DNA from: a virus
Strand: one strand, 5' to 3'
Length of the DNA: 64,000 nucleotides
IMG/VR virus record: IMGVR_UViG_3300025876_001969
Coordinates: 1-64,000 of that record
Positions 38,828 through 61,655 of the stretch are shown here, in pieces (the stretch's first letter is position 1; every line of letters starts with the position of its first letter). The position numbers and the translations under genes were made by a program. Under the pieces are notes generated by a model, which saw only the letters and a list, made by a program, of their open reading frames with translations, searched no databases and was not told the DNA's origin.

Positions 38828-39973
38828 ATGAGTAAAAAACTAATACAATCAATAATTTCCGTATTACTAGACAATCCAGTATCCAAATACGTCAAAAAAA
38901 ATAAATTTTCAGAAAAAAAATTAAATGTTTCCGAGCATCCTGCCGATAAAAGAGATTGGGTTCACGTCTCTCAGTATTTAAAATCTGAAAGTATTAGCAG
39001 TAAGGAATTCTCCAGAAGATCACTATGCGTAAGCGTCGCTAACCAAGGGTCAATAGGTTCATGCGTGGGTCACAGCGGAAGGGTTGTTCTTGGTTCGGCT
39101 AGTGCGTTTAAGGCTGAAGAGCCAAGCCCTATGTGGATATACAAGACTGCTAAAAAATACGACCCATGGGCTGGCGAAGATTACTCAGGAACATCGATCA
39201 GGGGGGCTGCTAACGCATTAATAAACGAAGGTTGCTGCTTTGAAAGCTTTTGGCCATATATAGATAGCGAATCCAGCAGCCCTAAAGAAGGGGCAAAAGA
39301 AGACGCTGGACTAAAGAAGATTAGCTCCTACCACGTTATACCCTGCTCCGAAACAGAAGAGATCAAAAGGATGGTGATTGACCGGCCACTTTGGTATGCA
39401 TTCAAGGTTAGGGATTACTTTTTCTCTATTGGATATGACGGCATTGTTGACACAGAAAAATACTTAGCATCAGAGGTTGCTGGCGGCCACGCAGTATGTC
39501 TTATCGGATGGAAGTATATAAACGACAAGCTTTATTGGGAATTTCAAAACAGTTGGGGTTTATTTTTTGGAAACTCTGGCTACTTTTTTATGGAGGATTC
39601 CTTATTTAGGTCTTCTATCATGAACTCTATTGGCCCCTACTATGTAGAGCTTTCGGATGGGTTTGTTAATCCAAAACCAATTGACCCCGATCCAGAACCT
39701 ATCGAACCAGATCCAGAACCTATCGAACCAGAACCAGAACCTATCGAACCAGAACCAGAACCCATCAAACCAGAACCTAAGAAAAGCAAAAACATACCAT
39801 TGATAATTTGCGCAATAATTGTGATTCTAGCATTAATTATATTTTCCAGCTCCTCTGACCCCGAAGCATTACCAATGAACTGGGATGAAAAATTAGAAAA
39901 AGAGTTTAAAGAGAAAGGCATAGATAGAGACTCATACTTGCGCGATTTTAAGAAAAAACAGCAAGCAGAGTAA
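38828..39973 (+). CDS. Papain-like (C1 family) cysteine peptidase with C-terminal membrane anchor
   Basis: 381 residues. Catalytic residues are visible: Cys in NQGSIGSCVGH (about 79), His in VAGGHAVCLIGW (about 221) and Asn in WEFQNSWGLFFGNSG (about 240), giving a complete papain triad. There is no signal peptide. After the domain come four 7-residue Pro/Glu repeats (P-D/E-P-E-P-I-E), then one hydrophobic helix (about 323-341, IPLIICAIIVILALIIF) and a charged tail. The layout suggests a cytoplasmic peptidase tethered to the inner membrane by a stiff stalk. Role in infection (lysis, host takeover, virion maturation) is unknown. Confidence 0.85.
   Translation: MSKKLIQSIISVLLDNPVSKYVKKNKFSEKKLNVSEHPADKRDWVHVSQYLKSESISSKEFSRRSLCVSVANQGSIGSCVGHSGRVVLGSASAFKAEEPSPMWIYKTAKKYDPWAGEDYSGTSIRGAANALINEGCCFESFWPYIDSESSSPKEGAKEDAGLKKISSYHVIPCSETEEIKRMVIDRPLWYAFKVRDYFFSIGYDGIVDTEKYLASEVAGGHAVCLIGWKYINDKLYWEFQNSWGLFFGNSGYFFMEDSLFRSSIMNSIGPYYVELSDGFVNPKPIDPDPEPIEPDPEPIEPEPEPIEPEPEPIKPEPKKSKNIPLIICAIIVILALIIFSSSSDPEALPMNWDEKLEKEFKEKGIDRDSYLRDFKKKQQAE
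39686..39778 (+). repeat. 21-bp coding repeats (PDPEPIE stalk)
   Basis: Four in-frame 21-bp units from 39686 to 39769, plus a partial fifth, encode Pro/Glu heptads between the peptidase domain and its membrane helix. Copies differ by one or two bases. A similar 15-bp Glu/Pro repeat is found in the GHKL ATPase gene at 53919-53978. Confidence 0.85.
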
Positions 39974-40290
39974 TGAATCTGATCATAGACTCAACCCTAT
40001 CCGAACCTCCCAGCGAGATATCCTGCTTCAGGGACGTAACTATGTATAGTAAAGTGTTTCATTTTGAAAACGTACTACTTTCCTGCAAGATGGGCACAAG
40101 ATCTATGTACTGGAACTGGTTAAAGAATAACGGCGCTCATGATTTCATCTCTTATGTTCTCCACGAGGGAGAGTTGGAATCTGGCGCATTAATGCATCCA
40201 GAAAAAGGAGATATAGTCGTAGATAGAATAAACGCGCTCAACTTAAACTACATAATAACCAGGCTCAAAAGAATATCAGAAAATCTATAA
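39973..40290 (+). CDS. Small protein of unknown function
   Basis: 105 residues; ATG shares one base with the peptidase stop and the next gene starts immediately after its own stop, so the three are translationally linked. No signal peptide, membrane segment or known motif. The sequence CFRDVTMYSKVFHFENVLLS and a C-terminal helix IITRLKRISENL suggest a compact soluble protein. Neighbours (membrane-anchored peptidase and spanin-like lipoprotein) might indicate a lysis role, but nothing in the protein shows it. Confidence 0.5.
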   Translation: MNLIIDSTLSEPPSEISCFRDVTMYSKVFHFENVLLSCKMGTRSMYWNWLKNNGAHDFISYVLHEGELESGALMHPEKGDIVVDRINALNLNYIITRLKRISENL

Positions 40291-40614
40291 ATGAAAAAAT
40301 ATATATTAATTTTAATCATTCCCTTCTTGCTTAATTGTTCTACATTTAAAAAAAGTAAAAACACCAATAACTCAACAAGTATACAACAAGTTATACCAAG
40401 TATTAATGATTTCAATAAAGCTGATATAAATAAAGACCAAGTTATAGATAAAAATGAATCAATTAAATTTTTTAATAAAAACAATTCAATAGACTACAAT
40501 ACTCCTTTTGCAGTTTTCTCTATACTGTCGACCATTGTTATGGTTATTTGTTTTTGGCCGATAGTTTATTCTTATTTATCGTCTTTAATTAAAAGATTCA
40601 AGAATCGTTCTTGA
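40291..40614 (+). CDS. Candidate unimolecular spanin: lipoprotein with C-terminal membrane helix and EF-hand-like loop
   Basis: 107 residues. The N-terminus MKKYILILIIPFLLNCS is a lipoprotein signal with lipobox LLNC (Cys 16). Residues about 70-92 (PFAVFSILSTIVMVICFWPIVYS) form one transmembrane helix followed by a basic tail (IKRFKNRS). An outer-membrane lipid anchor plus an inner-membrane helix is the topology of unimolecular spanins such as phage T1 gp11, which fuse the two membranes in lysis. The periplasmic part is short and contains DINKDQVIDKNE, an EF-hand/dockerin-type calcium loop, unusual for a spanin. A plain lipoprotein is the alternative. Confidence 0.5.
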   Translation: MKKYILILIIPFLLNCSTFKKSKNTNNSTSIQQVIPSINDFNKADINKDQVIDKNESIKFFNKNNSIDYNTPFAVFSILSTIVMVICFWPIVYSYLSSLIKRFKNRS

Positions 40615-45036: not shown

Positions 45037-45789
45037 ATGGATCACAATGGCCTTATTAATTATAAAAAAAACCGCCAAATTAATAGTCAAAAAACTATCA
45101 AAAATGGTAGTTCATCAGGTCGTCGACCCTCCAGCTCCATCAACTTAATGATATCTTATTTTAAAAAAAAACTAAATAAAGCCAAAACAGCATACGAAAA
45201 TAAAAGCCTTCAAATATTAAAATACCTAGATAGAGAATTAAACTACGAACAATCACTTAAATACTATACTGAACAAGACAAAATAAAAAAACTAACAATG
45301 GAATACAAATCTTACAAATTTGAAAACGAAATCCATAGCCTTAGCTCCATGCCGGAAACAGCTATCGAAGAAATAATAAGAATCAATAAAAGGATTACCG
45401 AGCATACTTGGGGAGTTATTCTCGAGGCCGACAAAGTTAGTGATATTAATGTTTATATCGCGCAAATGAATAAAGTTCAAATCAATGCGAGAAAAGCTAA
45501 TTTCTTTGTGGTTACCGACTCAGAAGATATTCTTTTAAAATTAAATGATGTGTTTAACTGGATGAATAAGATTTTTTACATAGTTCCAAATACATACAAT
45601 CACAACATAGATAAACAATACAGAAATAGTATAAATTTTCACTGCTTAAAGCATCTTGAAAAGCACGTATCCACTCCAGAATCTGTGCACATGAACATGT
45701 TAAAAGAAATTGGAGGCATACAAGTTACAGTGCCTAATCAAAATCGCGTTTTCTGTTTTAACTCTAAAAGATTAGTTCCAGGATCATGA
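45037..45789 (+). CDS. Unknown protein heading the glycan cluster
   Basis: 250 residues, first gene of the long overlapping run. The N-terminal 100 residues are Lys/Ser-rich then helical and probably coiled coil (NLMISYFKKKLNKAKTAYEN). The C-terminal half has a Rossmann-like alternation (ANFFVVTDSEDILLKL, MNKIFYIVPNTYNH), seen in some glycosyltransferases, but no firm motif. The 108-base gap before it is AT-rich with no clear promoter. Its stop overlaps the next glycosyltransferase (ATGA). Confidence 0.45.
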   Translation: MDHNGLINYKKNRQINSQKTIKNGSSSGRRPSSSINLMISYFKKKLNKAKTAYENKSLQILKYLDRELNYEQSLKYYTEQDKIKKLTMEYKSYKFENEIHSLSSMPETAIEEIIRINKRITEHTWGVILEADKVSDINVYIAQMNKVQINARKANFFVVTDSEDILLKLNDVFNWMNKIFYIVPNTYNHNIDKQYRNSINFHCLKHLEKHVSTPESVHMNMLKEIGGIQVTVPNQNRVFCFNSKRLVPGS

Positions 45790-46715
45790 AAAGAATATCT
45801 TACATATTAGTTTCCAGAAATGATAATTACAATGGCGATTCGGTTGGCCGTTGTGTCAACACAGTTAATCATGCCTGTGAAATCATTGCAAAGAATAATG
45901 TTATTGATCAATCTGAAGTCGTACTGGTTGATTGGTGCTCTCGTAGCGGCTCTTTAAAGGAGTCTATATCCTCTAGATTGGCTCCAGAAGCTAAAGGTCT
46001 ACTCAAAATAGTTACCGTGCCACCTGAGGTAGCTGACAGGCACCAGGGAGACTCTCCATTCTCAGAGGTTCACGCAATGAATGTTGGATTCAGAAACATG
46101 GAGGGTAAACATTTTGCGAGAATTGATCAAGACACCTTGATAGGTCAAAGGTTTATGGATTGGTTTTATCACGAGTATGAAGTTAAAGACTATGGTTGGA
46201 GCTGGCCAAGGGCGGCATTTTGCAGTCGCAGAAACTTAAGTGAAGACCAATCTCATCATTCTGTTTTTAGGGATTATATATACGATCAACAATTATCCAG
46301 GAAGGTTGATATTTGTCACGAGCACAATCACTATAGCCGATTAATGCCAAACGGCGAAGTTTTCCCTTTTTATGGCGGTGCAGTTGGTGTTATGATGGTT
46401 GACAGGGAATGCTACCTGGAACATAAAGGCTTTAATGAAAAGCTGGTCTACATGAATAGTATGGATACAGAGTTCCTTAATCGTATTGCGGCGAAAGAAG
46501 ATATATATAATTTATGTTTATCAATAGATGCTGATTTTTATCATCAAAATCATGACAGATCCGAAGGAGCATCCAACGATACCACGCAGCCTCACGCACA
46601 ACAAGAAGGGGAGCGCAAGACCAACGACCTAGATATCAGAAATAAAATGATAGATAACCCAAACCCAGACAACTGGGGCTTGCTTGACGAAGATTTAGAA
46701 ATAACCATAGTATGA
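45786..46715 (+). CDS. GT2-like glycosyltransferase with galactosyltransferase-type C-terminus
   Basis: 309 residues. SYILVSRNDNYNGDSVGRCV opens a GT-A fold; VLVDWCSRSGSLKE replaces the usual DDGSTD loop; the DxD motif is ARIDQDTLIG near residue 113; and FYGGAVGVMMVDRECYLEHKGF plus MNSMDTEFLNRI resemble the acceptor domain of GT7-type galactosyl/N-acetylgalactosaminyltransferases. It couples to both neighbours by ATGA overlaps. Substrate unknown. Confidence 0.75.
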   Translation: MKRISYILVSRNDNYNGDSVGRCVNTVNHACEIIAKNNVIDQSEVVLVDWCSRSGSLKESISSRLAPEAKGLLKIVTVPPEVADRHQGDSPFSEVHAMNVGFRNMEGKHFARIDQDTLIGQRFMDWFYHEYEVKDYGWSWPRAAFCSRRNLSEDQSHHSVFRDYIYDQQLSRKVDICHEHNHYSRLMPNGEVFPFYGGAVGVMMVDRECYLEHKGFNEKLVYMNSMDTEFLNRIAAKEDIYNLCLSIDADFYHQNHDRSEGASNDTTQPHAQQEGERKTNDLDIRNKMIDNPNPDNWGLLDEDLEITIV

Positions 46716-47563
46716 GTAACGTAATATATATTATCAACAACCTACCGTCTGATACGGATTTCGCAAATCCAGGCTATCAAGATGTCGCTTGGGTACCGCA
46801 CTGTTTAAAGTCGCTAGAAAGATACGCATCAAAGATAAACTGTGATCTTAAGATTATCTCAATGAATGACTTCCCTGCATTCAAAGAAATAGATGATTAC
46901 AACTTCAGCTTCTACCAGAAGAGCACCTTCATTAAGATTTTATTCTTGCATGAATTCATGAAGACTAGCTATGATAAGTTTGCGCTTCTTGATCTAGATA
47001 TGGTCGTTAGCAAAGACGCTACGGACATTTTTGAAACTTACGAAGAAAACGATTTCGTCATGGGTTATGGATTTCACCCAGCAGTTGTTCAGAAGAATGA
47101 AATCTTCCTTAAGAAATACCTAAAAAGCATACCAGAAGATGAAAATGTATACTGGCATAATGAAAAAACCAACAGGGATATACCAAAATACAATTTAAAT
47201 TTAGGATGTTACGTTATGGGGCGAGAAGTTGTACGGAAAATGACAAAGGTACTGCCCGACCAATACAGCTTTGTTGACTTCTTAAAGCATCATGGGTTGA
47301 TAGATAATCCAGTTCTAGAAGTACTAGGAGAGAGAAAAGATTTTATTGATCAAGATTTATATGCATACGCATACACAAAAACAGATATACTTAAAGAGCA
47401 CAAACCATTAGATTGGGTGTGGAACGCAAATTACCAAGCTTGTTTTCAAAAAGGAGAAGACAATAAATCTTTTAATCTGTGCCATTTATGCGGAGAGGAC
47501 GGAAAGCAATTCCTCCTGGACAACCTAAGCAACCCAGAAGTAATGGATAGAATTGATGTATAG
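46712..47563 (+). CDS. GT8-like glycosyltransferase
   Basis: 283 residues. The strand FALLDLDMVVSKDATDIFE near residue 90 carries the DxD metal site; YNLNLGCYVMGREVVRKM near 170 is the acceptor-side loop typical of GT-A glycosyltransferases of this shape; and FNLCHLCGEDGKQFL near the C-terminus could be a second metal or structural motif. Ends overlapping the first sulfotransferase gene. Sugar donor is unknown. Confidence 0.65.
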   Translation: MSNVIYIINNLPSDTDFANPGYQDVAWVPHCLKSLERYASKINCDLKIISMNDFPAFKEIDDYNFSFYQKSTFIKILFLHEFMKTSYDKFALLDLDMVVSKDATDIFETYEENDFVMGYGFHPAVVQKNEIFLKKYLKSIPEDENVYWHNEKTNRDIPKYNLNLGCYVMGREVVRKMTKVLPDQYSFVDFLKHHGLIDNPVLEVLGERKDFIDQDLYAYAYTKTDILKEHKPLDWVWNANYQACFQKGEDNKSFNLCHLCGEDGKQFLLDNLSNPEVMDRIDV

Positions 47564-48242
47564 TCACGAACATAAATTTATATACGTTCACATGCCCAAG
47601 TCTGCAGGAACTTTTGTAAAGCATTATTTGCTTTCCAATATAGAGTCAGATTATGCAAAGAATCAAAACCAGCAGGATTATGACGACAAATATCATGTGA
47701 CCTGCGAAAGAGCTCTTAATGCTATCGCGCAAGATGTGCCAGATTACGAAGATTACTTCAAGTTCACAGTTGTTCGTAATCCATTTGATAGAGTCGTATC
47801 AATGTTTTCTTATCTTGGCGGATGGAAGTTCGATTATTTTGTTGAAAACAATATAGAATCACCAATGATGCCTTATGTTCAGAAATTTCACCAGTATTAC
47901 ATGTCTGATGATTTTGATGGTTTTATTAAATACGCCTACGAAGAAAAAGCTATTTTAAAATTTCACGCTGGATACTATGAAAACTATGTTGACCGCATAA
48001 AAATTAATGGAGATATTGCTATTGATAAGTTTTATAAAATGGAAAACATAGAAGGATGTCTTGATGCATTAAAAGATGTTTTTGGCTTCAGTAGCTCCTC
48101 TGGGTTCGATGACTGGCGAAAGAATAGCAGCTCCGAATACAAAAAGAAAAATAGTTACAGAGATTACTACTCTGATTACAGTCGTGAATATATAGAAGAT
48201 CACTTCATTCGTGATTTAGATTACTTTGGTTATGGATTCTAA
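47556..48242 (+). CDS. Carbohydrate sulfotransferase (Sulfotransfer_2-like), copy 1
   Basis: 228 residues from the ATG at 47556 (a TTG precedes it by one codon). The 5'-phosphosulfate loop FIYVHMPKSAGTFVKHYL is near residue 8, and the 3'-phosphate motif FTVVRNPFDRVVSMFSYL is near 71. These are the two PAPS-binding signatures of carbohydrate sulfotransferases. It would transfer sulfate from PAPS to a glycan hydroxyl. No signal peptide or membrane anchor is present, unlike Golgi relatives. PAPS must come from the host; no PAPS synthesis gene is in view. Confidence 0.8.
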   Translation: MYSHEHKFIYVHMPKSAGTFVKHYLLSNIESDYAKNQNQQDYDDKYHVTCERALNAIAQDVPDYEDYFKFTVVRNPFDRVVSMFSYLGGWKFDYFVENNIESPMMPYVQKFHQYYMSDDFDGFIKYAYEEKAILKFHAGYYENYVDRIKINGDIAIDKFYKMENIEGCLDALKDVFGFSSSSGFDDWRKNSSSEYKKKNSYRDYYSDYSREYIEDHFIRDLDYFGYGF

Positions 48243-49032
48243 ATTTGTTATATTTGGTCAGGAGCGGGCTGGAACAACCAGTTTAATTTCCGCGTTGAAT
48301 AAAAATGACAGAATAGTGCACGAGCCATTATCTTCACTCACAGGAGATCTTGAGCACAACCCTAGGTATTCCCAAATAATTAAGGATCACAAGATGGATC
48401 CCAATAACTTACCTGAATCTAAAAACATTCCATACTTTAATAAATTTAACAATATAGCTGAAGATTATGAAAGACTCTGGAGTTTCCTAGACTCTCTGTT
48501 TAATACCTTTGACGGGGTAAAACATGTATGGTGTACATCCTCAGAAGAAGGAAATGAAAACTTCCTCTCCTACTGTCAAGCGCATGGTATAAAAATAATT
48601 TTCCAATATCGAGAAAGTGCTTTTGACCCTGCCGTTTCATGGCAACTCGCCAACCAAGTGCAAATTTGGCAGCTAGGAGAAAACAAAGAGCATAAGTCTA
48701 CAGTGGATTCTTTTGATTATCAAGAATTAGAAGAGCCCCCCATAAAAAGAAGAACCGCCTGGTACAAAAAATACATCCCTCACTACCACTCCCTACTTCC
48801 GCCAAACAGTCTTGTCTCTAAATATGAAGACCTATACAGACTAGAAACATACCAAGAAAGGCTAGAGAAATTCAACTCGATAGTAGACTACCTAGACATC
48901 GAGATAGATGAAAATAATGTAGAAAACTTCTTGGGCACAGACAGAAGAGTATTCGGCAAAAAAGCCTATAATAAAATACCAAATTATCAAGAAATGTTTG
49001 ATAAATATGGCCGTGAGAAAATCATATTATGA
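48232..49032 (+). CDS. Sulfotransferase-like protein, divergent, copy 2
   Basis: 266 residues from the ATG at 48232 (a TTG lies two codons upstream). KFVIFGQERAGTTSLISAL is a P-loop-like PAPS-binding loop at residues 4-22, followed by RIVHEPLSS. The second motif is less standard (IIFQYRESAFDPAVSWQLA near 121), and SLVSKYEDLYRLETYQERL near 200 matches the late conserved region of sulfotransferases. It overlaps the previous stop and is followed by a fucosyltransferase-like gene with an ATGA overlap. Confidence 0.65.
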   Translation: MDSKFVIFGQERAGTTSLISALNKNDRIVHEPLSSLTGDLEHNPRYSQIIKDHKMDPNNLPESKNIPYFNKFNNIAEDYERLWSFLDSLFNTFDGVKHVWCTSSEEGNENFLSYCQAHGIKIIFQYRESAFDPAVSWQLANQVQIWQLGENKEHKSTVDSFDYQELEEPPIKRRTAWYKKYIPHYHSLLPPNSLVSKYEDLYRLETYQERLEKFNSIVDYLDIEIDENNVENFLGTDRRVFGKKAYNKIPNYQEMFDKYGREKIIL

Positions 49033-49892
49033 GCAAGTATTATTATTTCTCCTGGGATGCTGGCTGGGGCGACACCATATGGCACTTAACTAATGCATTA
49101 ATTCATTGCGAGAATTCAAAGCAAGATATGCTTATAGATTTGCGCGGCCACTGGTCTAGCAAAGGTGAAAAAAACCTATTCAATGAATACTTCTGCTCCA
49201 TAGATACCGATATAAACATTATAACTAATGAAGAATCTATAGACCAATTAAAAAAAGATTCAGAAAAACATACAAATAAAACTGTAAAAATTAAAAACCC
49301 CTTAAAATCAAAAGAAGACACCGAGTTATTCTACAACACCTTTTCTCGCATTAAGCCCAGTGAATCGGTGACTAACACCGTCAAAGATATAGTGCGCGAA
49401 AAATTCAAAGGTAATTACATGGTCGGAGTTCACGCTAGAATGTCGAATGGAGAAGTTAAGAGTCGATTTGAAGGGGCTCGCCCAATGAAAGACGCTGTAT
49501 TGTTTTATAAAGAAAAGATCGACGATATACTCTTTAACGCTCCTCGTGCTTTTTTGAAATCCTGCAAGGATTATAAATTTTTTATAGCTTCTGACTCGAG
49601 CAAATTCGTAGACATATTCAAGGATCAGTTCCCAAATACCGTTTCAATAGATAGGTATTTTGCCCCTCCAGGTTGCGGCACCGGTCACGAAATAGGTGAA
49701 GGCTCAACAGAGGAGCAGTTAAAATTAGAAGAAGTTTACGGCAAGACAAAAATAGCCAAAGAAGCTCTTGTTGATTTCTATTTACTACAGGAGACTAATT
49801 TTCTATTCAAGAACTTTAGTCGATTTAATGAGTTCTGCTTATACAAAGGCGTGCCAAATTTTCATATAAATTTCCAGGAGAAGTGTTATTAA
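49029..49892 (+). CDS. Fucosyltransferase-like protein (NodZ/GT23-type)
   Basis: 287 residues. YYYFSWDAGWGDTIWHLTNA opens a GT-B-type Rossmann domain; MVGVHARMSNGEVKSRFEG near residue 131 matches the GDP-fucose-binding H-x-R motif of alpha-1,6- and O-fucosyltransferases; and FFIASDSSKFVDIF near 185 matches motif II. This fits the gmd and fcl genes of the same phage, which make the GDP-fucose donor. Acceptor unknown. Confidence 0.7.
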   Translation: MSKYYYFSWDAGWGDTIWHLTNALIHCENSKQDMLIDLRGHWSSKGEKNLFNEYFCSIDTDINIITNEESIDQLKKDSEKHTNKTVKIKNPLKSKEDTELFYNTFSRIKPSESVTNTVKDIVREKFKGNYMVGVHARMSNGEVKSRFEGARPMKDAVLFYKEKIDDILFNAPRAFLKSCKDYKFFIASDSSKFVDIFKDQFPNTVSIDRYFAPPGCGTGHEIGEGSTEEQLKLEEVYGKTKIAKEALVDFYLLQETNFLFKNFSRFNEFCLYKGVPNFHINFQEKCY

Positions 49893-50531
49893 ATGATTAG
49901 TCACAGGTATAAATGCATCTTCCTTCATATCCCTAAAGCTGCCGGCACTTCAATTGAGCGGCTTTTATCTGGAGCCGACATAGATATACCCCAAAAAGTT
50001 CCAAGAAAACGTGGCTTTTCTCATTTTTTAAACGAGCACTTGGACTATTATGTCTTCTCTGTTGTTCGTAATCCATATGACCGCTTCGTATCTGCATGGA
50101 AATGGGGCGAGTTAAAATTCGAAAAAGAAGGCGGCCTACCATTCTATAATAAAGAAAGATCAGTATCGTTCGAGGAATATGTTCTACTAACTACTGACAT
50201 CGATTACCGCAAAAACAATAAAAACTTATGGAGCGAATACGACGAATACCATACGCTGCCACAGTTTGAATTCTTCCCTCATTTAAATGGCGGTCATTAT
50301 TTTACAGACACAATAAAGCCTGAATTTACTTGTGATTTTATTGGTCGATTTGAAAACCTTCACGAAGATCTCAATGAGGCCTGGTCTAGTATTGGTATAA
50401 ATCAGTTTGACTTACCTCATGCATATAATTCAAAGACGTTCAAAAAAGAAGCCATATGGTCGAGTGAGTTAAAAGATAAGATGTATAATTATTACAAAAA
50501 AGATTTTGAATTATTTAATTACGAAAAATGA
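49893..50531 (+). CDS. Carbohydrate sulfotransferase, copy 3
   Basis: 212 residues, starting right after the previous stop. PAPS motifs: CIFLHIPKAAGTSIERLL at the N-terminus and VFSVVRNPYDRFVSAWKW near 53. FIGRFENLHEDLNEAWSSIG near 150 is the conserved late motif. The start MISHRYKCIFLHIPK is closely paralleled in the genes at 59218 and 61057, so these three are paralogues. It should act on a cytoplasmic glycan or lipid-linked intermediate. Confidence 0.85.
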   Translation: MISHRYKCIFLHIPKAAGTSIERLLSGADIDIPQKVPRKRGFSHFLNEHLDYYVFSVVRNPYDRFVSAWKWGELKFEKEGGLPFYNKERSVSFEEYVLLTTDIDYRKNNKNLWSEYDEYHTLPQFEFFPHLNGGHYFTDTIKPEFTCDFIGRFENLHEDLNEAWSSIGINQFDLPHAYNSKTFKKEAIWSSELKDKMYNYYKKDFELFNYEK

Positions 50532-51409
50532 AATTTTGCATATTCACTCATTTGTTCTTCAGGCCCAATCTTTTTCATTTTGAGGAATGGTTGAAGTATC
50601 ATATTGATTTTGGAGTAGACCACTTTTACTTTTACGAAAGTTCTCATTCGGGAATACCTTGCCTAGCAAAAGATACAAAAAGGCAAATAGATATACCCTT
50701 AGTTGGCGATATTCCGTACAGTCGTATTTATAAATACTACGATGAAATTAGGGAAAGGTATAAAGATTACTGCACTTTTATCAAATGGTTACCAAAGGAT
50801 AAAAACGGTAACTACCTAGAGCACCATCAAATTCATGCTTACGAACAAGCCACGGCTTTTAATCATTTCTATAAAAATTATGCCAAAAAACACGACAGAG
50901 TATCAACTATAGATTGCGATGAATTTTATTATAGCGACAAACATGACAACATTACAAGTTTTTTAGATAAAAACAAACAAGATATTTCGTTATTAGGTTG
51001 TAAGTTTTTTGAATCTGTGTTTGTTCATGTCGGCGACTTGGTAGCGCAGAAGACAAAATGCTTAGATAAATTCTCAAGAGTTGGCCCTAAATATATATTC
51101 AATGCTCAAAACGCAAACTTGATATACAAAAACTCGCCCCACTTCCCTCCCAGTAAAAACAGAACTAGTGTAAATATAAGTCAAGAAGAACTTTGCTTCT
51201 ATCATTATAAAGTTAATAAAAATGCAAAAATTTCAATAGAACACCACAGCAAACAAAAAATGAAATACGCAGAAGATAAATCAATGGCTAAAAAAGCCCA
51301 GTATTTACAAGATTATAATTTTATAGCAAAGCCGCAAACAAAACAAAACTTCATCGATTCAGAAGAAGACATATTAGGTTTAGATTTATTTACATGGGAC
51401 CAAAGATGA
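50528..51409 (+). CDS. GT92-like glycosyltransferase
   Basis: 293 residues. FHFEEWLKYHIDFGVDHFYF near residues 16-36 matches the GT92/DUF23 signature, the DxD equivalent is STIDCDEFYYSD near 128, and ELCFYHYKVNKNAKISIEHH near 220 fits the family's late His region. GT92 members include beta-1,4-galactosyltransferases that act on fucose in animals; whether that holds here is not known. ATGA overlap with the upstream sulfotransferase. Confidence 0.7.
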   Translation: MKFCIFTHLFFRPNLFHFEEWLKYHIDFGVDHFYFYESSHSGIPCLAKDTKRQIDIPLVGDIPYSRIYKYYDEIRERYKDYCTFIKWLPKDKNGNYLEHHQIHAYEQATAFNHFYKNYAKKHDRVSTIDCDEFYYSDKHDNITSFLDKNKQDISLLGCKFFESVFVHVGDLVAQKTKCLDKFSRVGPKYIFNAQNANLIYKNSPHFPPSKNRTSVNISQEELCFYHYKVNKNAKISIEHHSKQKMKYAEDKSMAKKAQYLQDYNFIAKPQTKQNFIDSEEDILGLDLFTWDQR

Positions 51410-52131
51410 ACCTTAAAATTATATCATTCTGCAACTATCCTTACAGAGAAATAGCCTTAAACTGGGTCAAGCACTTAGAAGCTTTGTCCATAGATAATTA
51501 CGAAGTTTTATGTCTCGATTCTGAATCTGACGAATATTTAAAATCCCACGGCTGCCACTCAAGAGTTCTAGATGAATTTAATGGTGACTGGATTTCTGGC
51601 TGCAAGCATACCATGCGCCGCACCTTGATATTTAAAAAGTACTTAGAAGAAGGTTGTGACATTATTCATTCAGACACTGATGCGCTTTGGCTCAAAAACC
51701 CTATACCTGAATTGATCGAATCAAACAGTCAAGATATTATTGTATCAACGGTTAGGCATAAAGGAGCATTCCCACCAGAGGTTCGCGAAGCTTTTGGATT
51801 TACATGCTGCATGGGCTGGATATTTTTTCGAAGCAATAAAAACACAATCAACTATCTAGATAAATTCCTTAACACTAGAGAGGTCAAGGGCTCAGATCAG
51901 AAAAACTTCAATGAATTCTTATTGAGCAATAATCCATCAATTAGCCCGCTCGACAATGGAGATGAGCTAATCATTACCAATGACTTAAACGTCTCATTGC
52001 TTGGGCTATCAAAGCCTCTAGTCAAGCGCGGCCCAATAGAAGAAGAAACATACGTCTGGCATCCAAACACAAGAAAAGAAGCCGAGCATAAAAAACAATC
52101 GTTTATAGATAGAGGACTATGGAAAATTTAA
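51406..52131 (+). CDS. Nucleotide-diphospho-sugar transferase (GT77-like)
   Basis: 241 residues from the ATG at 51406 (ATGA overlap); a further in-frame ATG lies 12 bases upstream. The sequence IIHSDTDALWLKNPIPEL near residue 88 is the D-x-D motif and following loop of the PF03407 family, whose members include alpha-galactosyl- and xylosyltransferases. CMGWIFFRSNKNTINYL and SDQKNFNEFLL are the other expected motifs. Donor unknown. Confidence 0.75.
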   Translation: MNLKIISFCNYPYREIALNWVKHLEALSIDNYEVLCLDSESDEYLKSHGCHSRVLDEFNGDWISGCKHTMRRTLIFKKYLEEGCDIIHSDTDALWLKNPIPELIESNSQDIIVSTVRHKGAFPPEVREAFGFTCCMGWIFFRSNKNTINYLDKFLNTREVKGSDQKNFNEFLLSNNPSISPLDNGDELIITNDLNVSLLGLSKPLVKRGPIEEETYVWHPNTRKEAEHKKQSFIDRGLWKI

Positions 52132-52589
52132 TCTCACATCTTGAAGGCCCGAATAAGCATATTATTAATTTAATAAACCTTGATAGCGGCGAAGTTGTCA
52201 ATTCAACAAGTAAATGGCTAAGTGATCGTTGGTTTTTGCGCGAAACAAACTTTGCAAAACATTTGACATGTGTCGAAATCAGCCCATTCAAAAACACAAA
52301 AGACTCAAACGTATTTGTCGGGAAAAAGTATTTGGGGCATAAAGTTTACAAATCTCTATCCGATTCATCAACATCTATTGACTTCTTATCAATACTTGAC
52401 CCTGACATCTCGCTTGAAGTTTTAGAGTCTATCGATTTTTCCAAGTATACAATCAAGCGTTTCTGTATAGCTATTAACCCAGTAAAAACAAAAAATTTTA
52501 AACAAAACAAAAAAGACATAGAATTATTCATGAAGGATAAAGCTAAATTTATAAAACAAAACAGAACAGAGCTTCTGTATAGTGTATAA
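52119..52589 (+). CDS. Short FkbM-methyltransferase-like protein
   Basis: 156 residues. SIDFLSILDPDISLEVLESI near residue 88 and KYTIKRFCIAINP resemble the end of FkbM-type methyltransferases, where the SAM-binding domain meets the substrate site. The N-terminal SAM loop (usually GxxxG) is not seen and the protein is short, so it may be a reduced or inactive member. It overlaps the previous gene by 13 bases. Confidence 0.45.
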   Translation: MENLISHLEGPNKHIINLINLDSGEVVNSTSKWLSDRWFLRETNFAKHLTCVEISPFKNTKDSNVFVGKKYLGHKVYKSLSDSSTSIDFLSILDPDISLEVLESIDFSKYTIKRFCIAINPVKTKNFKQNKKDIELFMKDKAKFIKQNRTELLYSV

Positions 52590-52590
52590 T
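52585..52590 (+). promoter_or_regulatory. TATAAT box before the GHKL ATPase gene
   Basis: AGTGTATAATATATC overlaps the stop of the previous gene and ends just before the ATG at 52596. It has an extended -10 look (GTG before TATAAT) but no -35. It is nearly the same as the box at 10441-10446. Confidence 0.4.
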
Positions 52591-52595
52591 ATATC

Positions 52596-54320
52596 ATGGA
52601 ACAAATAAAAATACAAACAGGAGCAAACCTTAGTCGCTTGCTTCAATCAACAGTAAACATACCTCAAGCCTTTACTGAGCTTGTAAAAAACTCGATACAA
52701 AATTTCTCTACATTTTGCCGCATTGATTTTAACGATGCATGCGCAACTATAATCGACGACGGCCAAGGCTTTGATCATGAAAAAGATGAAAACGGCATGA
52801 GTGGTTTTGAGAAATACTTTGTCTTTGGAAATTCCTACGATATGACTGGCGGTAAAGGCGTGAAGCTTGGTCAAATGGGAATAGGTGGCAAACTTGCAAA
52901 CGACAAACTCTCCAACGAGATTGATATACATTGGATCATTGAAACAAAGAATATCCACGGCAAATGCTTTATTGTTGAATACAAGCCTTCTGGCGTCGAA
53001 TTTTTGAACGATTATTCTCCTGAGCTTACTGAAATAAGCCCAGAAGAATGCTCTATACTCACAGAGTCTGGAACAAAGATAACTATTGCAACCCTAAAAG
53101 ACCATATACAAAAAGAGGGCTGGCCTTCTGGTCAAATTAAAAATGAGCTTTGCACTTTCTTTGGCTTCCTTTTGCCGCAGCTTGAAAAAGAAGGTAAGAA
53201 ATTCGACCTAATCCTTAATGGGGAAAGTTTAGACTTTTCATACAAACTTCCTGGCTCTAATATTCCTATTATTAGGCGCGAATTTGAATACGACTACTAC
53301 GGCGAAAAGCGCACCAGCAATATCGAATTTAGATTATCATTAATTTATAATCGCGGCTTAATTAAAAACCATCCATTAAAAAACATTGAAATAATATCAA
53401 AGGTTAAAATCTGCTCGCTTAACTTGTCCGACCAAGACTTACTAGAATCAACACTAGAATGGTTGGAAGAAAAAAACAAAGAAGAAATAAAAGATAAAGA
53501 TAAAATTTATGATGTGTTTAATAAGTTGATTGGTTTTATTTCTTGCGATGACCTCTCTGAAGTTATGGATAGTACTGGAATGCCAGCCAAAGATCTTTCT
53601 CATCATGGGTTAAGGAGTGACCACCCCATAACGAACCCTTTTTACGAAAGAGTTTATAAAGTTCTACTCGAGTGGATCGTTGAATATATCAAATTGAACT
53701 CCGAAGAAAAAATGAACATCCTTGACGCTCTTGCTAACGAGGTATCAAGCATGCTTGCTGAATATTTTGAAGACGAAGACTTTTCTGATTTATGGGACAC
53801 TGAAGAAGAGGAGGACGACGAAGAAGAAGAACTAACAGAAGATGAGAAAAAAGAAGAGAAAGAAAGAAAAGAGTTGGAAAAATTCGCAGAGCTCACAATT
53901 GATAAAGAATGGGTTTTTGAGCCAGAACCGGAAGAGCCAGAACCGGAAGAGCCAGAACCGGAAGATCCAGAGCCTGAAAATAATATACCTCCCCTCTGGA
54001 ATAAATACAAAAACCAAAAATTAAAACAATCAAAAAGGCTAAGGTATAGAATTATTGATTTTGGAGAGGAAGAATCTAAATCAATGTCTAAGGTTGATGA
54101 CATATCTGACTTCACCATATTAATCAACAACGGCAATCCTAAATTCAAAAGATTCTACGAAGAGAATTCTCCATTCTTATTGTCTCTTCATATTTCCGAA
54201 CTACTTATTAGAGAGATATCAATGTATAAGAATCCTTTAGCTAGGCCTACTGATCTAGACGAAGCTATTAGTGATTTCTATTCCAATAAATACACCCAAA
54301 TAAAGAAGAATAGTGAATGA
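52596..54320 (+). CDS. GHKL ATPase, MORC/Hsp90-like
   Basis: 574 residues. The Bergerat ATP fold is clear: N-box AFTELVKNSIQN (about 27-38), G1 box TIIDDGQGFD (about 51-60) and G2 box LGQMGIGGKLA (about 90-100). Residues 150-330 resemble the S5-like transducer domain of MORC or Hsp90 relatives. A Glu/Asp-rich low-complexity segment (about 400-430) and Glu-Pro repeats (about 442-461) follow, then a C-terminal domain. There is no His-kinase dimerisation helix. Such ATPases act as molecular clamps; the target here is unknown. It stands alone among glycan genes and has its own TATAAT box. Confidence 0.7.
   Translation: MEQIKIQTGANLSRLLQSTVNIPQAFTELVKNSIQNFSTFCRIDFNDACATIIDDGQGFDHEKDENGMSGFEKYFVFGNSYDMTGGKGVKLGQMGIGGKLANDKLSNEIDIHWIIETKNIHGKCFIVEYKPSGVEFLNDYSPELTEISPEECSILTESGTKITIATLKDHIQKEGWPSGQIKNELCTFFGFLLPQLEKEGKKFDLILNGESLDFSYKLPGSNIPIIRREFEYDYYGEKRTSNIEFRLSLIYNRGLIKNHPLKNIEIISKVKICSLNLSDQDLLESTLEWLEEKNKEEIKDKDKIYDVFNKLIGFISCDDLSEVMDSTGMPAKDLSHHGLRSDHPITNPFYERVYKVLLEWIVEYIKLNSEEKMNILDALANEVSSMLAEYFEDEDFSDLWDTEEEEDDEEEELTEDEKKEEKERKELEKFAELTIDKEWVFEPEPEEPEPEEPEPEDPEPENNIPPLWNKYKNQKLKQSKRLRYRIIDFGEEESKSMSKVDDISDFTILINNGNPKFKRFYEENSPFLLSLHISELLIREISMYKNPLARPTDLDEAISDFYSNKYTQIKKNSE
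53919..53978 (+). repeat. 15-bp coding repeats (EPEPE)
   Basis: Three identical in-frame GAGCCAGAACCGGAA units and a diverged fourth encode a Glu/Pro linker in the GHKL ATPase. It parallels the heptad stalk of the papain-like peptidase at 39686-39778. Confidence 0.85.
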
Positions 54321-55005
54321 TAAGGGAGTAATTTACGTTGCTGTAGACCCCAACACAGCCCCCCAAGAGAGAAAATACAACCCAGACAAGAAACAAATAC
54401 TCAAAGAATTTTTTCATTCTTTCAATTCCTTAAGGCTAACTAACCCATCTCTCTCTGCGACAGTTTTTACTGACTACAAGGAAATTCTTGACTCTTCTTT
54501 AGATTTTGAGCGAAATCAAATTAAAAATGACTTCGGCCTTAAACCTAAAGTTTTTGGCATAAAAAATTCACCCTATAAGCGTACAGTTTTTTTAGATACA
54601 GATACCGAAGTAAAAGGCTCGATAGAGCCTATTTTCTCATATCTTAATGGTAATGATCTTTGCCTTGCAAAAGAGTTTATCATTACCTCTGCTTTCAATA
54701 CTGGAGTTATTTCCTTCAAGAAGTCTTCTTTGGTTAAAGCTTTTATAGATTTTTGGTATAAATCAATGGATAATAACCATGAAAAAGTTTGCGACCAAGG
54801 CTGCTTTAATAATATCATTAAGTTCAAGCATAAAAATCCTCCTAAAAATTTAATCCATATAAAAAAAATTATCGACCCGATCTCAATTAAAATTTTAGAC
54901 AGCAAAATATGGAACCTTCGTGTTGCAGAAAAAAAACAACTTCTATCAGAGGGGTTTGATTTCAATAAGAATATAATTCTCCACATGAGAGGGTTGGCTA
55001 AATAA
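54313..55005 (+). CDS. GT-A glycosyltransferase-like protein
   Basis: 230 residues from a GTG start overlapping the ATPase stop. The strand RTVFLDTDTEVKGSIEPIFS near residue 92 carries the D-x-D metal site of GT8-like enzymes, and ITSAFNTGVISFKKSSLVKA near 131 with VCDQGCFNNII near 160 are the acceptor and 'DQ' motifs. It lacks any export signal. Substrate unknown. Adjacent to a similar small GT-A gene. Confidence 0.7.
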   Translation: MNDKGVIYVAVDPNTAPQERKYNPDKKQILKEFFHSFNSLRLTNPSLSATVFTDYKEILDSSLDFERNQIKNDFGLKPKVFGIKNSPYKRTVFLDTDTEVKGSIEPIFSYLNGNDLCLAKEFIITSAFNTGVISFKKSSLVKAFIDFWYKSMDNNHEKVCDQGCFNNIIKFKHKNPPKNLIHIKKIIDPISIKILDSKIWNLRVAEKKQLLSEGFDFNKNIILHMRGLAK

Positions 55006-55667
55006 TGAATTACGACCTTTACATATTAACTACTGCAATCGATAGGCCCGACCTGCATAATCAAACACTGCCACCCTTTTTTAAAATACTGGAAGATCAG
55101 GGTGTCAATTATAAATGGTTTATTAACTTAGATTCTCCGTTTAAAAAAACAGAAGAAGCCACAAATAACTTAAAATCTTTCAATGGAGGCTCCCAAGACT
55201 TGCATATTTCAGATAAAGCCTGTTTTTATTCGGCGGCAAAACACGTGATCAGTTCTGCGTATAATGAACTAGACAATCTTGATGGTTACGTCATGTGGCT
55301 TGAAGATGACTGGGATTTACTTATTCCCTTTAACATGCGCGAATTAATAGGTAGTGATTATGAATATATTGGCTTTCACTTTCATCACTTTTTTGAATTC
55401 TCATTTAACCCAACTATGTGGAGCAAAGATTTTTTTGTAAAAAATGTACACGAACCTTTTGCTACTTCAGAGACTTCAATTGATCCAGAGCAGCTATTAA
55501 TCAATCACCATAAAAAAACTAGATCAGAAGATTCTAGCCACCTAAAGGATGTAAACCGAATTAACTTCAACGGCGTATTTGAAGATGCTGGCAGAAAATG
55601 GGGAGAACAATATAATTTAAAAAAATGGAATAAAAACAAAACAGGAGGAAGCGTTAGTTATGCCTAA
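55005..55667 (+). CDS. Putative GT-A glycosyltransferase
   Basis: 220 residues. YDLYILTTAIDRPDLHNQTL at the N-terminus and GYVMWLEDDWDLLIPFNMRE near residue 95 (E-D-D in place of D-x-D) fit small GT-A folds; IGFHFHHFFEF follows. No standard C-terminal GT2 motif is seen. A strong ribosome-binding site (AGGAGG) inside its 3' end serves the next gene. Confidence 0.55.
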   Translation: MNYDLYILTTAIDRPDLHNQTLPPFFKILEDQGVNYKWFINLDSPFKKTEEATNNLKSFNGGSQDLHISDKACFYSAAKHVISSAYNELDNLDGYVMWLEDDWDLLIPFNMRELIGSDYEYIGFHFHHFFEFSFNPTMWSKDFFVKNVHEPFATSETSIDPEQLLINHHKKTRSEDSSHLKDVNRINFNGVFEDAGRKWGEQYNLKKWNKNKTGGSVSYA

Positions 55668-56391
55668 AGCCTCCATAATATTATCGTCCTACAATAACTT
55701 ATCCGCACTTGAGTTAAGTATTGAAAGTTTGAAACATCAAACAGAAAAAGATTTTGAAATCATTATAGCAGATGATGGCTCAACAGATGGCACAATAGAA
55801 TATTTAGAAAAAGAAGGAATACAATATTTTAGCCGCCCCAATGAAGGCTACAGGCTTGCGTATATTTGGAATCGCGGAGCCGATCTAGCAAAAGGGGATA
55901 GATTTATCTTTGGTAATTCGGATATTATATCTCACCCTAAAAGAATAGAGGAGCATTCAAAATTTAATAACTATTTAATCGCTGGCAGTTATCCATCAAT
56001 ACCAATTGATTATGTAAAATCTATAACAAAAGAAAAAATACGGCACAACTTTTGGTCGATAGATTTAATAGCGACAGAGGACAGAAGAAAGGATTACATT
56101 TCTGGGCTCAAAAAACCACAATTACATCACGGTAAAAAGATACCTCCGCGATATATGTATGGCGGCAACTGGTCTTGCCCTGCTGATATTTTTAAAAAAC
56201 TGGGAGGTCTAGATGAAGAGTTTAAAGGTTGGGGTGGAGAGGATTTTGATTTTGCCCGACGAGCTCAACTAGATGGGCATGATACCATCCTTAATACTAA
56301 TTGTATTGGGTATCATCTTGATCATGAGACGATCAATAGAGACGAAACTCGGTCAATAGGTAAAAGTTATTTCAACCAAAAATGGTCATAA
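55660..56391 (+). CDS. GT2/GT7-type glycosyltransferase
   Basis: 243 residues, with AGGAGG 11 bases before the ATG. ASIILSSYNNLSALELSIES, IIADDGSTDGTIEYL and the DxD-like FGNSDII define GT2; the C-terminal GGLDEEFKGWGGEDFDFARR is the galactosyltransferase C-domain motif (GWGGED) that binds acceptor and metal. This combination is known from chondroitin-type and capsule polymerases. It may add Gal, GalNAc or GlcNAc residues. Confidence 0.85.
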   Translation: MPKASIILSSYNNLSALELSIESLKHQTEKDFEIIIADDGSTDGTIEYLEKEGIQYFSRPNEGYRLAYIWNRGADLAKGDRFIFGNSDIISHPKRIEEHSKFNNYLIAGSYPSIPIDYVKSITKEKIRHNFWSIDLIATEDRRKDYISGLKKPQLHHGKKIPPRYMYGGNWSCPADIFKKLGGLDEEFKGWGGEDFDFARRAQLDGHDTILNTNCIGYHLDHETINRDETRSIGKSYFNQKWS

Positions 56392-57179
56392 AGCCTAAGA
56401 TAATAGATGCCTTCATGTTTAATAATGAGCTTGATATACTTAATTTCAGGCTACATGAATTAAACGATTATGTAGATAAGTTTGTTATATATGAAAACTC
56501 ATGGACTTTCAGCGGCAATAAAAAACCACTTTACTTTGAGGAGAACAAACAAATGTTTTCTAAATTTTCCGACAAGATAGTTCATATAAAAAGTAACACT
56601 CGAGGAAAAGACAACTGGAAAAGGGAATATGCCCAAAGATATGAGGTATTACTGAAAGGAGTCTCATTGCTAAACTTAAACGACGAAGATATCGTTTCTT
56701 TTTGTGATCTAGATGAAATTATAGACACAGAATTAATCACTAACTACAAAAACGAGTTACCCAAAGACACAGTCTTGCTTGTCCAGCCTCATTGGTTTAA
56801 CGTATCCTGGGATTGCTACCTAGGAGCATGGCAACATCACAGTATTATTTTCTCCTACTGGAGGGAGCTTCAAAAAAGAATGCCCCACTGGAGGGGCATG
56901 CAATGCGGTTGGCGATGGGATCATCCTAAATTCCCCCAGCCGATCAAGAAACAGGAATTATCTGGCTGGCATGCGTCTTGGTTCATGAAAACTGAAGATT
57001 TAATCGTTAAATTAAAAAGCTTCGCCCACAATGGAGAAGAATGGGTTGACGAATTGTTACAAAATATCGATATCGTTAAGTTTAGAATTAAATCAGGGCT
57101 TGACATTCAAGGCGAAAAGCAATCAGAAAAATTCGATAAAAATTATCCTGTCTTTAAAAATTATATCACCTATGACTAA
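56382..57179 (+). CDS. GT17-like N-acetylglucosaminyltransferase
   Basis: 265 residues. PKIIDAFMFNNELDILNFRL at the N-terminus, VDKFVIYENSWTFSGNKKPL, the acidic pair in VSFCDLDEIIDTEL near 108 and SGWHASWFMKTED near 198 all follow the GT17 (beta-1,4-mannosyl-glycoprotein GlcNAc-transferase, MGAT3-like) pattern. Family members add bisecting GlcNAc in animals; bacterial and viral ones are little studied. Overlaps both neighbours. Confidence 0.8.
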   Translation: MVIKPKIIDAFMFNNELDILNFRLHELNDYVDKFVIYENSWTFSGNKKPLYFEENKQMFSKFSDKIVHIKSNTRGKDNWKREYAQRYEVLLKGVSLLNLNDEDIVSFCDLDEIIDTELITNYKNELPKDTVLLVQPHWFNVSWDCYLGAWQHHSIIFSYWRELQKRMPHWRGMQCGWRWDHPKFPQPIKKQELSGWHASWFMKTEDLIVKLKSFAHNGEEWVDELLQNIDIVKFRIKSGLDIQGEKQSEKFDKNYPVFKNYITYD

Positions 57180-57801
57180 TTTAAAATTAATTTCTGTAAT
57201 TAGTTCGGGAGACAATAGATACAAATCTATTCGCGATAATTTCTTAGCCAACACATCTTCTTTTGATTCAATTATTTCCAGTGTTGAGGTTATAAATGTT
57301 GAGACAAAATCGGGGGACTGGCAAAGTCAAGGCTTCCTGGATACCGTATACAAAAAATTAGATCACACCCATCAGTTATTAAAACAAGGTCACACTGTTT
57401 TTTGCACCGACTTAGATATTTTCTACCTAAAAGATCCCATAGAATACATGCATGGATTACTTGATAATTTCGATATTGTTGGGCAAAATGATTTTGATAG
57501 GCTCTGCACGGGTTTTTATATGGTCAAATCTTCTGATTTAACAGTAGATCTTTTTGACACAACCGAGAAACTTGTTTTAGATGGTGAGCAAAGCGATCAA
57601 AATTATATCCATACTAAATTACAATCAGACAAATACTCTAGCCTAAAAGTCCACAAGCTTAATGAAGACTCTTTCCCCAATGGATATCGCTGGTATAAAT
57701 GGAATAAAAGATTAAATCCATCCATTGTTCATTACAATAGTGTAGACTCTATAGAAGGAAAGATAGACAAAATGAAACAATTCAATCACTGGCTAGTGTG
57801 A
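57172..57801 (+). CDS. Putative glycosyltransferase (DxD, GT77-like)
   Basis: 209 residues from the ATG at 57172, which overlaps the previous stop by 8 bases; a longer frame starting at 57031 would run deep into the GT17 gene and gives an unlikely N-terminus. TVFCTDLDIFYLKDPIEYMH near residue 76 is the metal site, LCTGFYMVKSSDLTVDLF near 112 the acceptor loop and GEQSDQNYIHTKL near 137 the 'DQ' motif. Substrate unknown. Confidence 0.7.
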   Translation: MTNLKLISVISSGDNRYKSIRDNFLANTSSFDSIISSVEVINVETKSGDWQSQGFLDTVYKKLDHTHQLLKQGHTVFCTDLDIFYLKDPIEYMHGLLDNFDIVGQNDFDRLCTGFYMVKSSDLTVDLFDTTEKLVLDGEQSDQNYIHTKLQSDKYSSLKVHKLNEDSFPNGYRWYKWNKRLNPSIVHYNSVDSIEGKIDKMKQFNHWLV

Positions 57802-58448
57802 AAAAAATATTTAAAATTTTCGTCTGTTGTCATAAATATATTCATAGAGTTGAAGATATAAAGGCTCGCGTCAATAAATGGAATCTTGGTGATTATTTAA
57901 TTTTTGTTGGCGGCGAAGAGGAAAAACAGTTAGAAGAAAATGTTATTCAATTAAAATGCCGTGATTTATACGAAGACCTGCCAGAAAAAATGTTTGCTAT
58001 CTATGGATATTTAGCAGATAACGGATACGCTAACAGCTATGATTACTTCTGGAAAATAGATGATGATGTTGATTTCATGCGCTGGAACGAAGGGCGCCAA
58101 GAAGCATTAGTTAACTCGCTCAACGGCCTAAACTACGCTGGATTCAAACTAAAAAGTGGAGAAGGTAAGCGTGGTTGGCATATCGGAAGAGTAAGAGAAG
58201 ACTCGCCCTGGTTCAACAAAAGATATAATGGAAGATACCCCGACTGGATGGATGGCGGCACAACATATTTCCTTAGTTCTAAAGCCTTAAACAAGTGGAA
58301 AAATTTTTATAAACTTTCAGAAATTAGAAATTACGATATATATGAAGACCTTGCAGTAGCTAAATATCTAGAAAAATGCAACATACTACCAGTAGAAATA
58401 AACCCATGGCAAGACAAACCCGTGCTAAAATTTAATATTAATAAATGA
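57798..58448 (+). CDS. GT31-like galactosyltransferase
   Basis: 216 residues from a GTG overlapping the previous stop. FWKIDDDVDFMRWNEGRQ near residue 84 is the D-D-D motif of beta-1,3-galactosyltransferases. YPDWMDGGTTYFLSSKALNK near 150 corresponds to the YPxYxxGxxYxLS motif, and IYEDLAVAKYLEKCNI near 179 to the ED-V motif. These three in order define the GT31 fold. It probably adds a beta-1,3-linked hexose. Confidence 0.8.
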   Translation: MKKIFKIFVCCHKYIHRVEDIKARVNKWNLGDYLIFVGGEEEKQLEENVIQLKCRDLYEDLPEKMFAIYGYLADNGYANSYDYFWKIDDDVDFMRWNEGRQEALVNSLNGLNYAGFKLKSGEGKRGWHIGRVREDSPWFNKRYNGRYPDWMDGGTTYFLSSKALNKWKNFYKLSEIRNYDIYEDLAVAKYLEKCNILPVEINPWQDKPVLKFNINK

Positions 58449-59221
58449 AAATCTTCAACAAAAGCAAAGAGGGGCTTTTTGGTTCCTCGATGAACTGGAT
58501 TAACGCAAGACTGCCTTATTTATATAAAAATAAGATATACCCTCATTGGGATATTAGAAACGTAAACCATGGAAACCCTTCGGACCAAGATAGGATTATC
58601 CCTCATATTATTGAGCCTAAAAAACAAAACGCAAATCCAGGTGAAACTGTAAACCTGCTAGATATAGAAAGATATCAGTATACCGACTTCAATGAGGCAA
58701 GCTTTTACTTTAATCATTATTTTGAATTGAATCAAAGCATTATTGATTTGTCTTTTGAAATTTGCAAACCTTTCGATAATTGTCTTGGTATACATTTTCG
58801 AGGCAATGATAAGTCTAGAAAGAATGACAAGGAGAATGTTCCTATAGATAATTATGCTTACATTGAAAAAATAAAACTTTTTGCTGAGCGCTATGATTTT
58901 GAAAGCGTTTTTGTTTTGTCTGATGAAGTTGCTCTAAAGGAATTTTTAAAAAATGAAATCTTAAAAATGCTTAATGTCCCTGTGTTTTTCACTAACATTG
59001 AACCAGTTTTCCATTTATCTCAAAAAACACTTGACAACAAGTTAGAATTAACAAAAAATGCTGTAGCAGAAATGCTCGTTCTTTCTCGATGCAAGTATGT
59101 ACTTAAAAATCAATCCGCATTTTCGAGTTGGGCAAAGATCATCAATCCTGAAATTAAAATGTACAGAACCAGCAAGTGCAAGCAAGACTGGTTCCCTGAT
59201 TATTATTTGCCAGAATTATGA
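58445..59221 (+). CDS. Fucosyltransferase-like protein (H-x-R-G motif)
   Basis: 258 residues. CLGIHFRGNDKSRKNDKENV near residue 113 is the GDP-fucose-binding H-x-R-G motif of O-fucosyl- and alpha-fucosyltransferases, SVFVLSDEVALKEFL near 152 matches motif II and VAEMLVLSRCKYVLKNQSAF near 210 matches the late S/D motif. It is distinct in sequence from the other fucosyltransferase-like gene at 49029. Donor GDP-fucose could come from gmd/fcl. Confidence 0.7.
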   Translation: MKIFNKSKEGLFGSSMNWINARLPYLYKNKIYPHWDIRNVNHGNPSDQDRIIPHIIEPKKQNANPGETVNLLDIERYQYTDFNEASFYFNHYFELNQSIIDLSFEICKPFDNCLGIHFRGNDKSRKNDKENVPIDNYAYIEKIKLFAERYDFESVFVLSDEVALKEFLKNEILKMLNVPVFFTNIEPVFHLSQKTLDNKLELTKNAVAEMLVLSRCKYVLKNQSAFSSWAKIINPEIKMYRTSKCKQDWFPDYYLPEL

Positions 59222-59814
59222 TTTCTCACGAGCATAAAGCCTTGTTTTTTCATATGCCCAAATGTGGGGGAACTTCCATTGAGCGCGTTTTAGCATCTTG
59301 CGGCTTTCAGAAGAGTTCTAGAGAAGCTTTTTACCAGAATCAACACTCTGTTAGTTTATTTGACCAAGCCAAAAAAAAATACGCTGATCATATTGATGAT
59401 TATTATAAATTTTCTTTTGTCCGAAATCCTTGGGACCGAATAGTTTCGGTTTGGAAAAAGCATGCTCTTCCTTTTTCTGATTCGGGAAGATTTCCAAACA
59501 TTAATGACTTCAATACTTTTATAAGAAAGTATCCATTACCCCAAAAAAATATTTTATGGCATGCGCGTTCTCAATTTTTTCAATTAAAAAACCCTTCTTT
59601 CTATAACTTTATCGGAAGGTTTGAAAATATAGAAGAGCACTTATTTTTTGCTTTGGATAGTATCGGTGTCACTAATAATATATCGCTCCCGAAATTAAAT
59701 CAATCCAGCCACAATCATTATAGTAATTATTATAACGAATATTCTGTAAAGAAAGTAGGGGAGATGTACAAAGAAGAAATTGATTATTTTGGCTATGAGT
59801 TTATTAATAAATGA
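59218..59814 (+). CDS. Carbohydrate sulfotransferase, copy 4
   Basis: 198 residues, ATGA overlap. PAPS motifs ALFFHMPKCGGTSIERVL (residues 8-25) and YKFSFVRNPWDRIVSVWKKH (about 62-81), and late motif FIGRFENIEEHLFFALDSIG. Closely parallels the genes at 49893 and 61057 in length and motif spacing. Sulfates an unknown glycan. Confidence 0.85.
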   Translation: MISHEHKALFFHMPKCGGTSIERVLASCGFQKSSREAFYQNQHSVSLFDQAKKKYADHIDDYYKFSFVRNPWDRIVSVWKKHALPFSDSGRFPNINDFNTFIRKYPLPQKNILWHARSQFFQLKNPSFYNFIGRFENIEEHLFFALDSIGVTNNISLPKLNQSSHNHYSNYYNEYSVKKVGEMYKEEIDYFGYEFINK

Positions 59815-61650: not shown

Positions 61651-61655
61651 ATAAA

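Follow-up and report, generated by a model that had tools for sequence, protein, structure and literature searches.

A lipoprotein at the nrdA-nrdB locus

The window analysed here is a stretch of 64,000 nucleotides that forms part of a 65,457-base IMG/VR virus record. Sequence reading places in it a lambda-like tail region, nrdA and nrdB, and numerous glycosyltransferase-like genes; an extended stretch at 45786-62222 has genes resembling glycosyltransferases, sulfotransferases, and methyltransferases. The kind of contig and the gene content suggest a marine host for the phage. Our subject is an open reading frame (ORF) among the nucleotide-metabolism genes (nrdA, NUDIX, nrdB), at the nrdA-nrdB locus, whose ATG lies immediately 3' of the stop of the ORF upstream. 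The features referred to below are as follows.

38828-39973, plus strand: papain-like (C1) peptidase with a Pro/Glu-rich stalk and a C-terminal membrane helix (Pfam Peptidase_C1, E 2.5e-15; synteny)
39973-40290, plus strand: conserved 105-aa ORF, its stop abutting the lipoprotein ATG (ORF listing; related loci)
40291-40614, plus strand: EF-hand lipoprotein with a C-terminal membrane helix, 107 aa (ORF; homologues in viral contigs)
40291-40338, plus strand: lipoprotein signal, residues 1-16, lipobox LLNC16 (sequence; Cys invariant in the alignment)
40339-40401, plus strand: linker, residues 17-37, variable and of low confidence (L022/L024 comparison; pLDDT)
40402-40482, plus strand: EF-hand helix-loop-helix, residues 38-64 (AlphaFold2; family profile matches EF-hand structures)
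40423-40458, plus strand: predicted 12-residue calcium loop DINKDQVIDKNE, residues 45-56 (alignment; shuffle test)
40507-40578, plus strand: single C-terminal transmembrane helix, residues ~73-96 (hydropathy; pLDDT ~90)
40579-40611, plus strand: basic tail, residues 97-107, taken as cytoplasmic (sequence; positive-inside rule)
63423-63857, plus strand: conserved 144-aa membrane protein (homologous to the cassette protein described below; synteny)

Two features named in the original prediction, a lipobox cysteine at residue 16 and a single membrane helix at the C-terminus followed by basic residues, are borne out. Cys16 lies within LLNC, where Asn at -1 deviates from the [LVI][ASTVI][GAS]C consensus, and the Cys is invariant across the family alignment. 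There is one C-terminal hydrophobic segment (hydropathy of 2.4 over residues 74-92), and the tail reads KRFKNRS. The AlphaFold2 model has a helix at 38-44, a loop, a helix at 54-64, and a long confident helix at 70-106; pLDDT falls below 50 at residues 22-35, within the linker, which matches its counterparts at 9 of 21 positions in L022 and 5 of 21 in L024.

A sequence search returned five near-identical copies (95-100%). In the four that differ, synonymous codon changes (9-10) outnumber non-synonymous ones (3-5), which indicates that the ORF is under purifying selection. Within the loop, the copies vary at positions 2 and 6 only, and the predicted calcium ligands are untouched.

Two observations concern the genes upstream. 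Many related loci retain the 105-aa ORF (LSEPPSEISCFRDVTMYSK), frequently next to the lipoprotein gene. The peptidase ends in a short tail, NWDEKLEKEF; at L045 2677-3816 a subtilisin-like protease (phrog_3677, E 3e-72) takes its place with a tail that also reads WDDKYQKEI, a pattern of an exchangeable protease with a conserved tail.

The homologue family and its EF-hand loop

Plain sequence searches yield near-identical copies only, and the single protein has no significant match in Pfam, PHROG, or NCBIfam. The wider family was reached by synteny, searching with the upstream papain-like peptidase and then reading downstream; in several relatives the peptidase gene precedes the lipoprotein or its cassette. 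Homologues occupy the same nrdA-nrdB position in L022 (64% identity) and L024 (~30%); a second gene order runs PhoH-like protein, peptidase, 61-aa ORF, 144-aa membrane protein, EF-hand lipoprotein. Beyond the window protein there are 54 distinct homologues, most of them directly behind the 144-aa gene, and 28 of these have the EF-hand. The family (cassette and nrd-locus copies together) thus comprises 55 distinct proteins, 29 with the EF loop and 26 without, all with a lipobox and a single C-terminal helix, and none with a +2 Asp or a periplasmic Cys. The ectodomain is 56 residues long in the window protein, 43-59 in EF members, and 34-43 in non-EF members. In cultured phages, the search for relatives gave chance-level matches only.

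The original prediction had read a D-x-N-x-D-x-x-I-D-x-x-E calcium pattern in the periplasmic part, and this holds up: it lies at residues 45-56 (DINKDQVIDKNE) and is upheld by the family profile, the AlphaFold2 model, and a shuffle test. Since the window sequence by itself scores under the Pfam EF-hand cut-off (10.9 vs 25.4 bits), the significance of the EF-hand rests on the family. The strict pattern arises in 0.09% of shuffles of the window ectodomain, and it is present in 24 of 51 distinct positional (adjacent) homologues against 0.06 expected from shuffled ectodomains. Loop positions 1 and 12 are invariant. Because a loop pattern served to sort the EF members, the sorting itself accounts for part of the loop conservation. 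Outside the sorting pattern, Phe at -4 in the preceding helix is found in 29 of 29, as is Glu (never Asp) at position 12, and position 3 is Asn or Asp only.

At E up to 1, a profile built from the 29 EF members matches 593 distinct PDB sequences. The best 60 of the 593 are EF-hand proteins, headed by a calcium-binding protein at E 3e-13, and lanmodulin and calmodulins are among the matches listed. Foldseek with the lipoprotein model also places EF-hand proteins at the top of its PDB list, but at E>1, which is not significant. Taken from sequence, the evidence indicates that the EF-hand is real rather than a product of chance, and calcium binding is predicted. With the EF-hand superfamily (calmodulin, lanmodulin, and others) it shares loop positions 1, 3, 5, 8, and 12 and the Phe at -4; it differs as a single unpaired hand on a phage protein anchored by lipid and helix, and in having Gly at loop position 6 in merely 16 of 29 members (Gln in the window). 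A "dockerin" label, also offered at the outset, finds no support, as the loop reads as an ordinary E-loop-F hand. The remark that such a loop is unfamiliar from any spanin agrees with our literature search, in which we found no paper linking spanins with EF-hands; co-occurrences of the terms were incidental, judged by title and count.

Members with and without the loop have a common start as well as a common juxtamembrane and helix region, and their profiles align with a profile-profile probability of 98.9% (E 1e-17), which places them in one family. When EF status is mapped onto a tree built from the 144-aa protein, it shows about eight switches, at least five of them forced by well-supported branches. 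Some non-EF members resemble decayed loops by eye (e.g., L056, "NIDSNTTDYNVLSI"), and from these we infer that loss is a likelier direction than gain. Given such repeated switching within one family, the loop is not essential to the core function, and since a sister group lacks it, calcium is not at the core of the mechanism.

Gene neighbourhood and the spanin reading

Among viral contigs, relatives of the 144-aa protein number at least 123, and 80 of their loci were fetched. At 65 of the 80, an ORF with a lipobox and a C-terminal helix begins at or beside the 144-aa stop codon, mostly with an overlap of four bases. The remaining 15 have no adjacent lipoprotein; several have one elsewhere in the record, with the EF-hand on the contigs of L101 and L082 and without it on those of L070, L075, L090, and L094. 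The window is of this kind, its two genes lying ~23 kb apart. In one clade the 61-aa ORF is a holin by PHROG (phrog_9987, E 1e-9), and the lipoprotein lies behind it and the 144-aa gene.

The 144-aa protein (window 63423-63857, L039-L118) keeps 68-83% identity between divergent phage contigs, a degree of conservation unusual in phage membrane proteins, while the lipoprotein beside it is mostly 14-30% identical to the window protein. It has no significant match in Pfam, PHROG, or NCBIfam, and Foldseek on its model, a poor one, returned nothing significant. Searching five related records for the candidate assignment GTA_holin_3TM (PF11351) gave nothing at E<=10. Two metagenome-assembled genome contigs carrying the gene were binned as Flavobacteriaceae and Halobacteriovorax; as the binning of phage contigs often goes wrong, this hints only weakly at the host.

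Our best reading of the lipoprotein, offered tentatively, is a phage lysis factor that acts on the envelope, of the unimolecular-spanin (u-spanin) type and with an accessory EF-hand. Its arrangement of N-terminal lipid and C-terminal helix is the anchor topology of u-spanins, all 58 catalogued examples of which lack a periplasmic Cys, and spanins are noted for extreme diversity (PMC6139136). The very divergent lipoprotein beside a conserved 144-aa neighbour was counted in favour of this reading. A likeness to T1 gp11, as originally proposed, stands for topology, and does so across the family: the N-terminal lipobox, single C-terminal helix, basic tail, and absence of periplasmic Cys and +2 Asp are common to both. 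It does not stand for descent or for the ectodomain. Homology to gp11 was rejected (hhalign probability of 11%, over the signal region only), and a juxtamembrane YDP-W likeness was dropped because other gp11 relatives that we read do not have it. T1-type ectodomains are beta-rich and 78-89 residues long (from phage records), whereas those of this family have 34-59 residues with, here, a helical EF-hand, and no endolysin adjoins the lipoprotein. With the two-component Rz/Rz1 spanins the family has the lipoprotein signal in common; some members weakly match Rz-like spanin PHROGs (E 0.03-0.5), mainly over that signal, but here one protein bears both anchors and has neither coiled coil nor periplasmic Cys.

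Length is the first difficulty. A typical periplasm is ~20 nm wide, and we estimate a reach of ~12 nm for the window ectodomain (56 residues, about half of them folded). Two-component spanins with merely 62 periplasmic residues in all do exist (PMC6139136).

The second is the lysis setting. A holin lies beside the lipoprotein in one clade, and the window gene stands outside any holin-endolysin cassette. No Phage_lysozyme, Amidase_2, SLT, M15_3, or M23 endolysin was recognised in eight related records, the longest of them 211 kb (G008, 211 kb; G014, 205 kb; G007, 138 kb; G011, 129 kb; and four others); the screen covered these five families, along with the best 25 of 85 families in a Pfam scan of one 211-kb record. 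The absence of the five families leaves the lysis context insecure. A rival spanin pair, which the original prediction had named, together with a missing lysis phenotype, as evidence against itself, was looked for across ~100 kb made up of the window and sampled contigs of its kin, and neither such a pair nor another credible lipoprotein was found.

Small proteins with an N-terminal membrane helix and a coiled coil, which bear a faint resemblance to Rz i-spanins (phrog_214, best E 0.005), lie near the 144-aa gene in ~30 loci and were counted against the spanin reading of the lipoprotein. Examples are L096 2822-3043 (minus strand), L084 1755-1985 (minus), L125 9463-9813 (minus), and L135 12560-12793. 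No o-spanin embedded in, overlapping, or adjoining them was found, nor any lipoprotein partner beside them.

The lipoprotein may instead have both anchors in the inner membrane, as do SctJ-type lipoproteins of type III secretion, and complex with or regulate the 144-aa protein as a holin/antiholin-like partner, the EF-hand folding its periplasmic loop. The close junction with the 144-aa stop at 65 of 80 loci speaks for this, as do the hydrophobic helices of the 144-aa protein, its position next to a holin in one clade, and an ectodomain that would not easily reach across the periplasm, least of all in non-EF members. It fits poorly with the 23 kb between the genes in the window and the 15 non-adjacent loci, with a conserved protein paired to a very divergent one, with the lack of any GTA_holin_3TM match in related genomes, and with the missing +2 Asp retention signal. 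Taken together, the short reach and the incomplete lysis setting keep the spanin-like reading tentative and make the 144-aa partner a possibility of real but lesser weight.

A role unrelated to lysis is unlikely. The protein would then be a superinfection-exclusion or envelope-remodelling lipoprotein, stabilised by calcium outside the cytoplasm; small phage lipoproteins for exclusion do exist, among them the annotated Cor of T1, and both the position of the window gene between nrdA, NUDIX, and nrdB and the membrane-anchored proteases nearby would suit it. In most relatives, however, the gene lies directly behind that of the 144-aa protein, with a holin in one clade, and exclusion lipoproteins of the Cor and Llp types have, to our knowledge, no C-terminal membrane helix, unlike the window protein.

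A possible mechanism and the part played by calcium

If the u-spanin-type reading is right, the signal would be processed and Cys16 lipidated, while the C-terminal helix would stay in the inner membrane with its tail inside. The lipid would reach the outer membrane, or insert there after the wall is cleared, and the short ectodomain would then draw both membranes together. The EF-hand probably serves in folding and pairing, with its site constitutively filled by calcium. Since single EF-hands usually associate in pairs, two lipoprotein molecules could dimerise through theirs, where two-component spanins use disulfides instead.

Seawater holds ~10 mM calcium, which would keep an EF-hand in the periplasm of a marine host permanently filled. 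A timing switch is thus an unlikely role for the loop; a part in structure or dimerisation would fit better, and the repeated absence of the loop agrees with this. The suggestion of calcium-tuned fusion is accordingly weakened, given that homologues lacking the loop are found at the same gene position and that the site would stay occupied in seawater. We consider it improbable that the family represents a new class of membrane-fusion lysis, in which periplasmic EF-hands, calcium-filled in seawater hosts, would pair two molecules and drive or gate fusion of the inner with the outer membrane, in phages that lyse their hosts without a recognisable endolysin.

How u-spanins work is still an open question (PMC6139136). 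With the EF-hand present in some members and absent from others while both anchors are kept, this family offers natural variants for testing what the ectodomain must do, and it points to a large group of uncultured marine phages with unrecognised lysis genes.

With a GAF match that lies under the curated cut-off (E 5.5e-4 for L036 7820-8413), a GAF-domain protein with an N-terminal membrane helix is encoded directly behind the lipoprotein in most cassettes, by L036 7820-8413 and its homologues.
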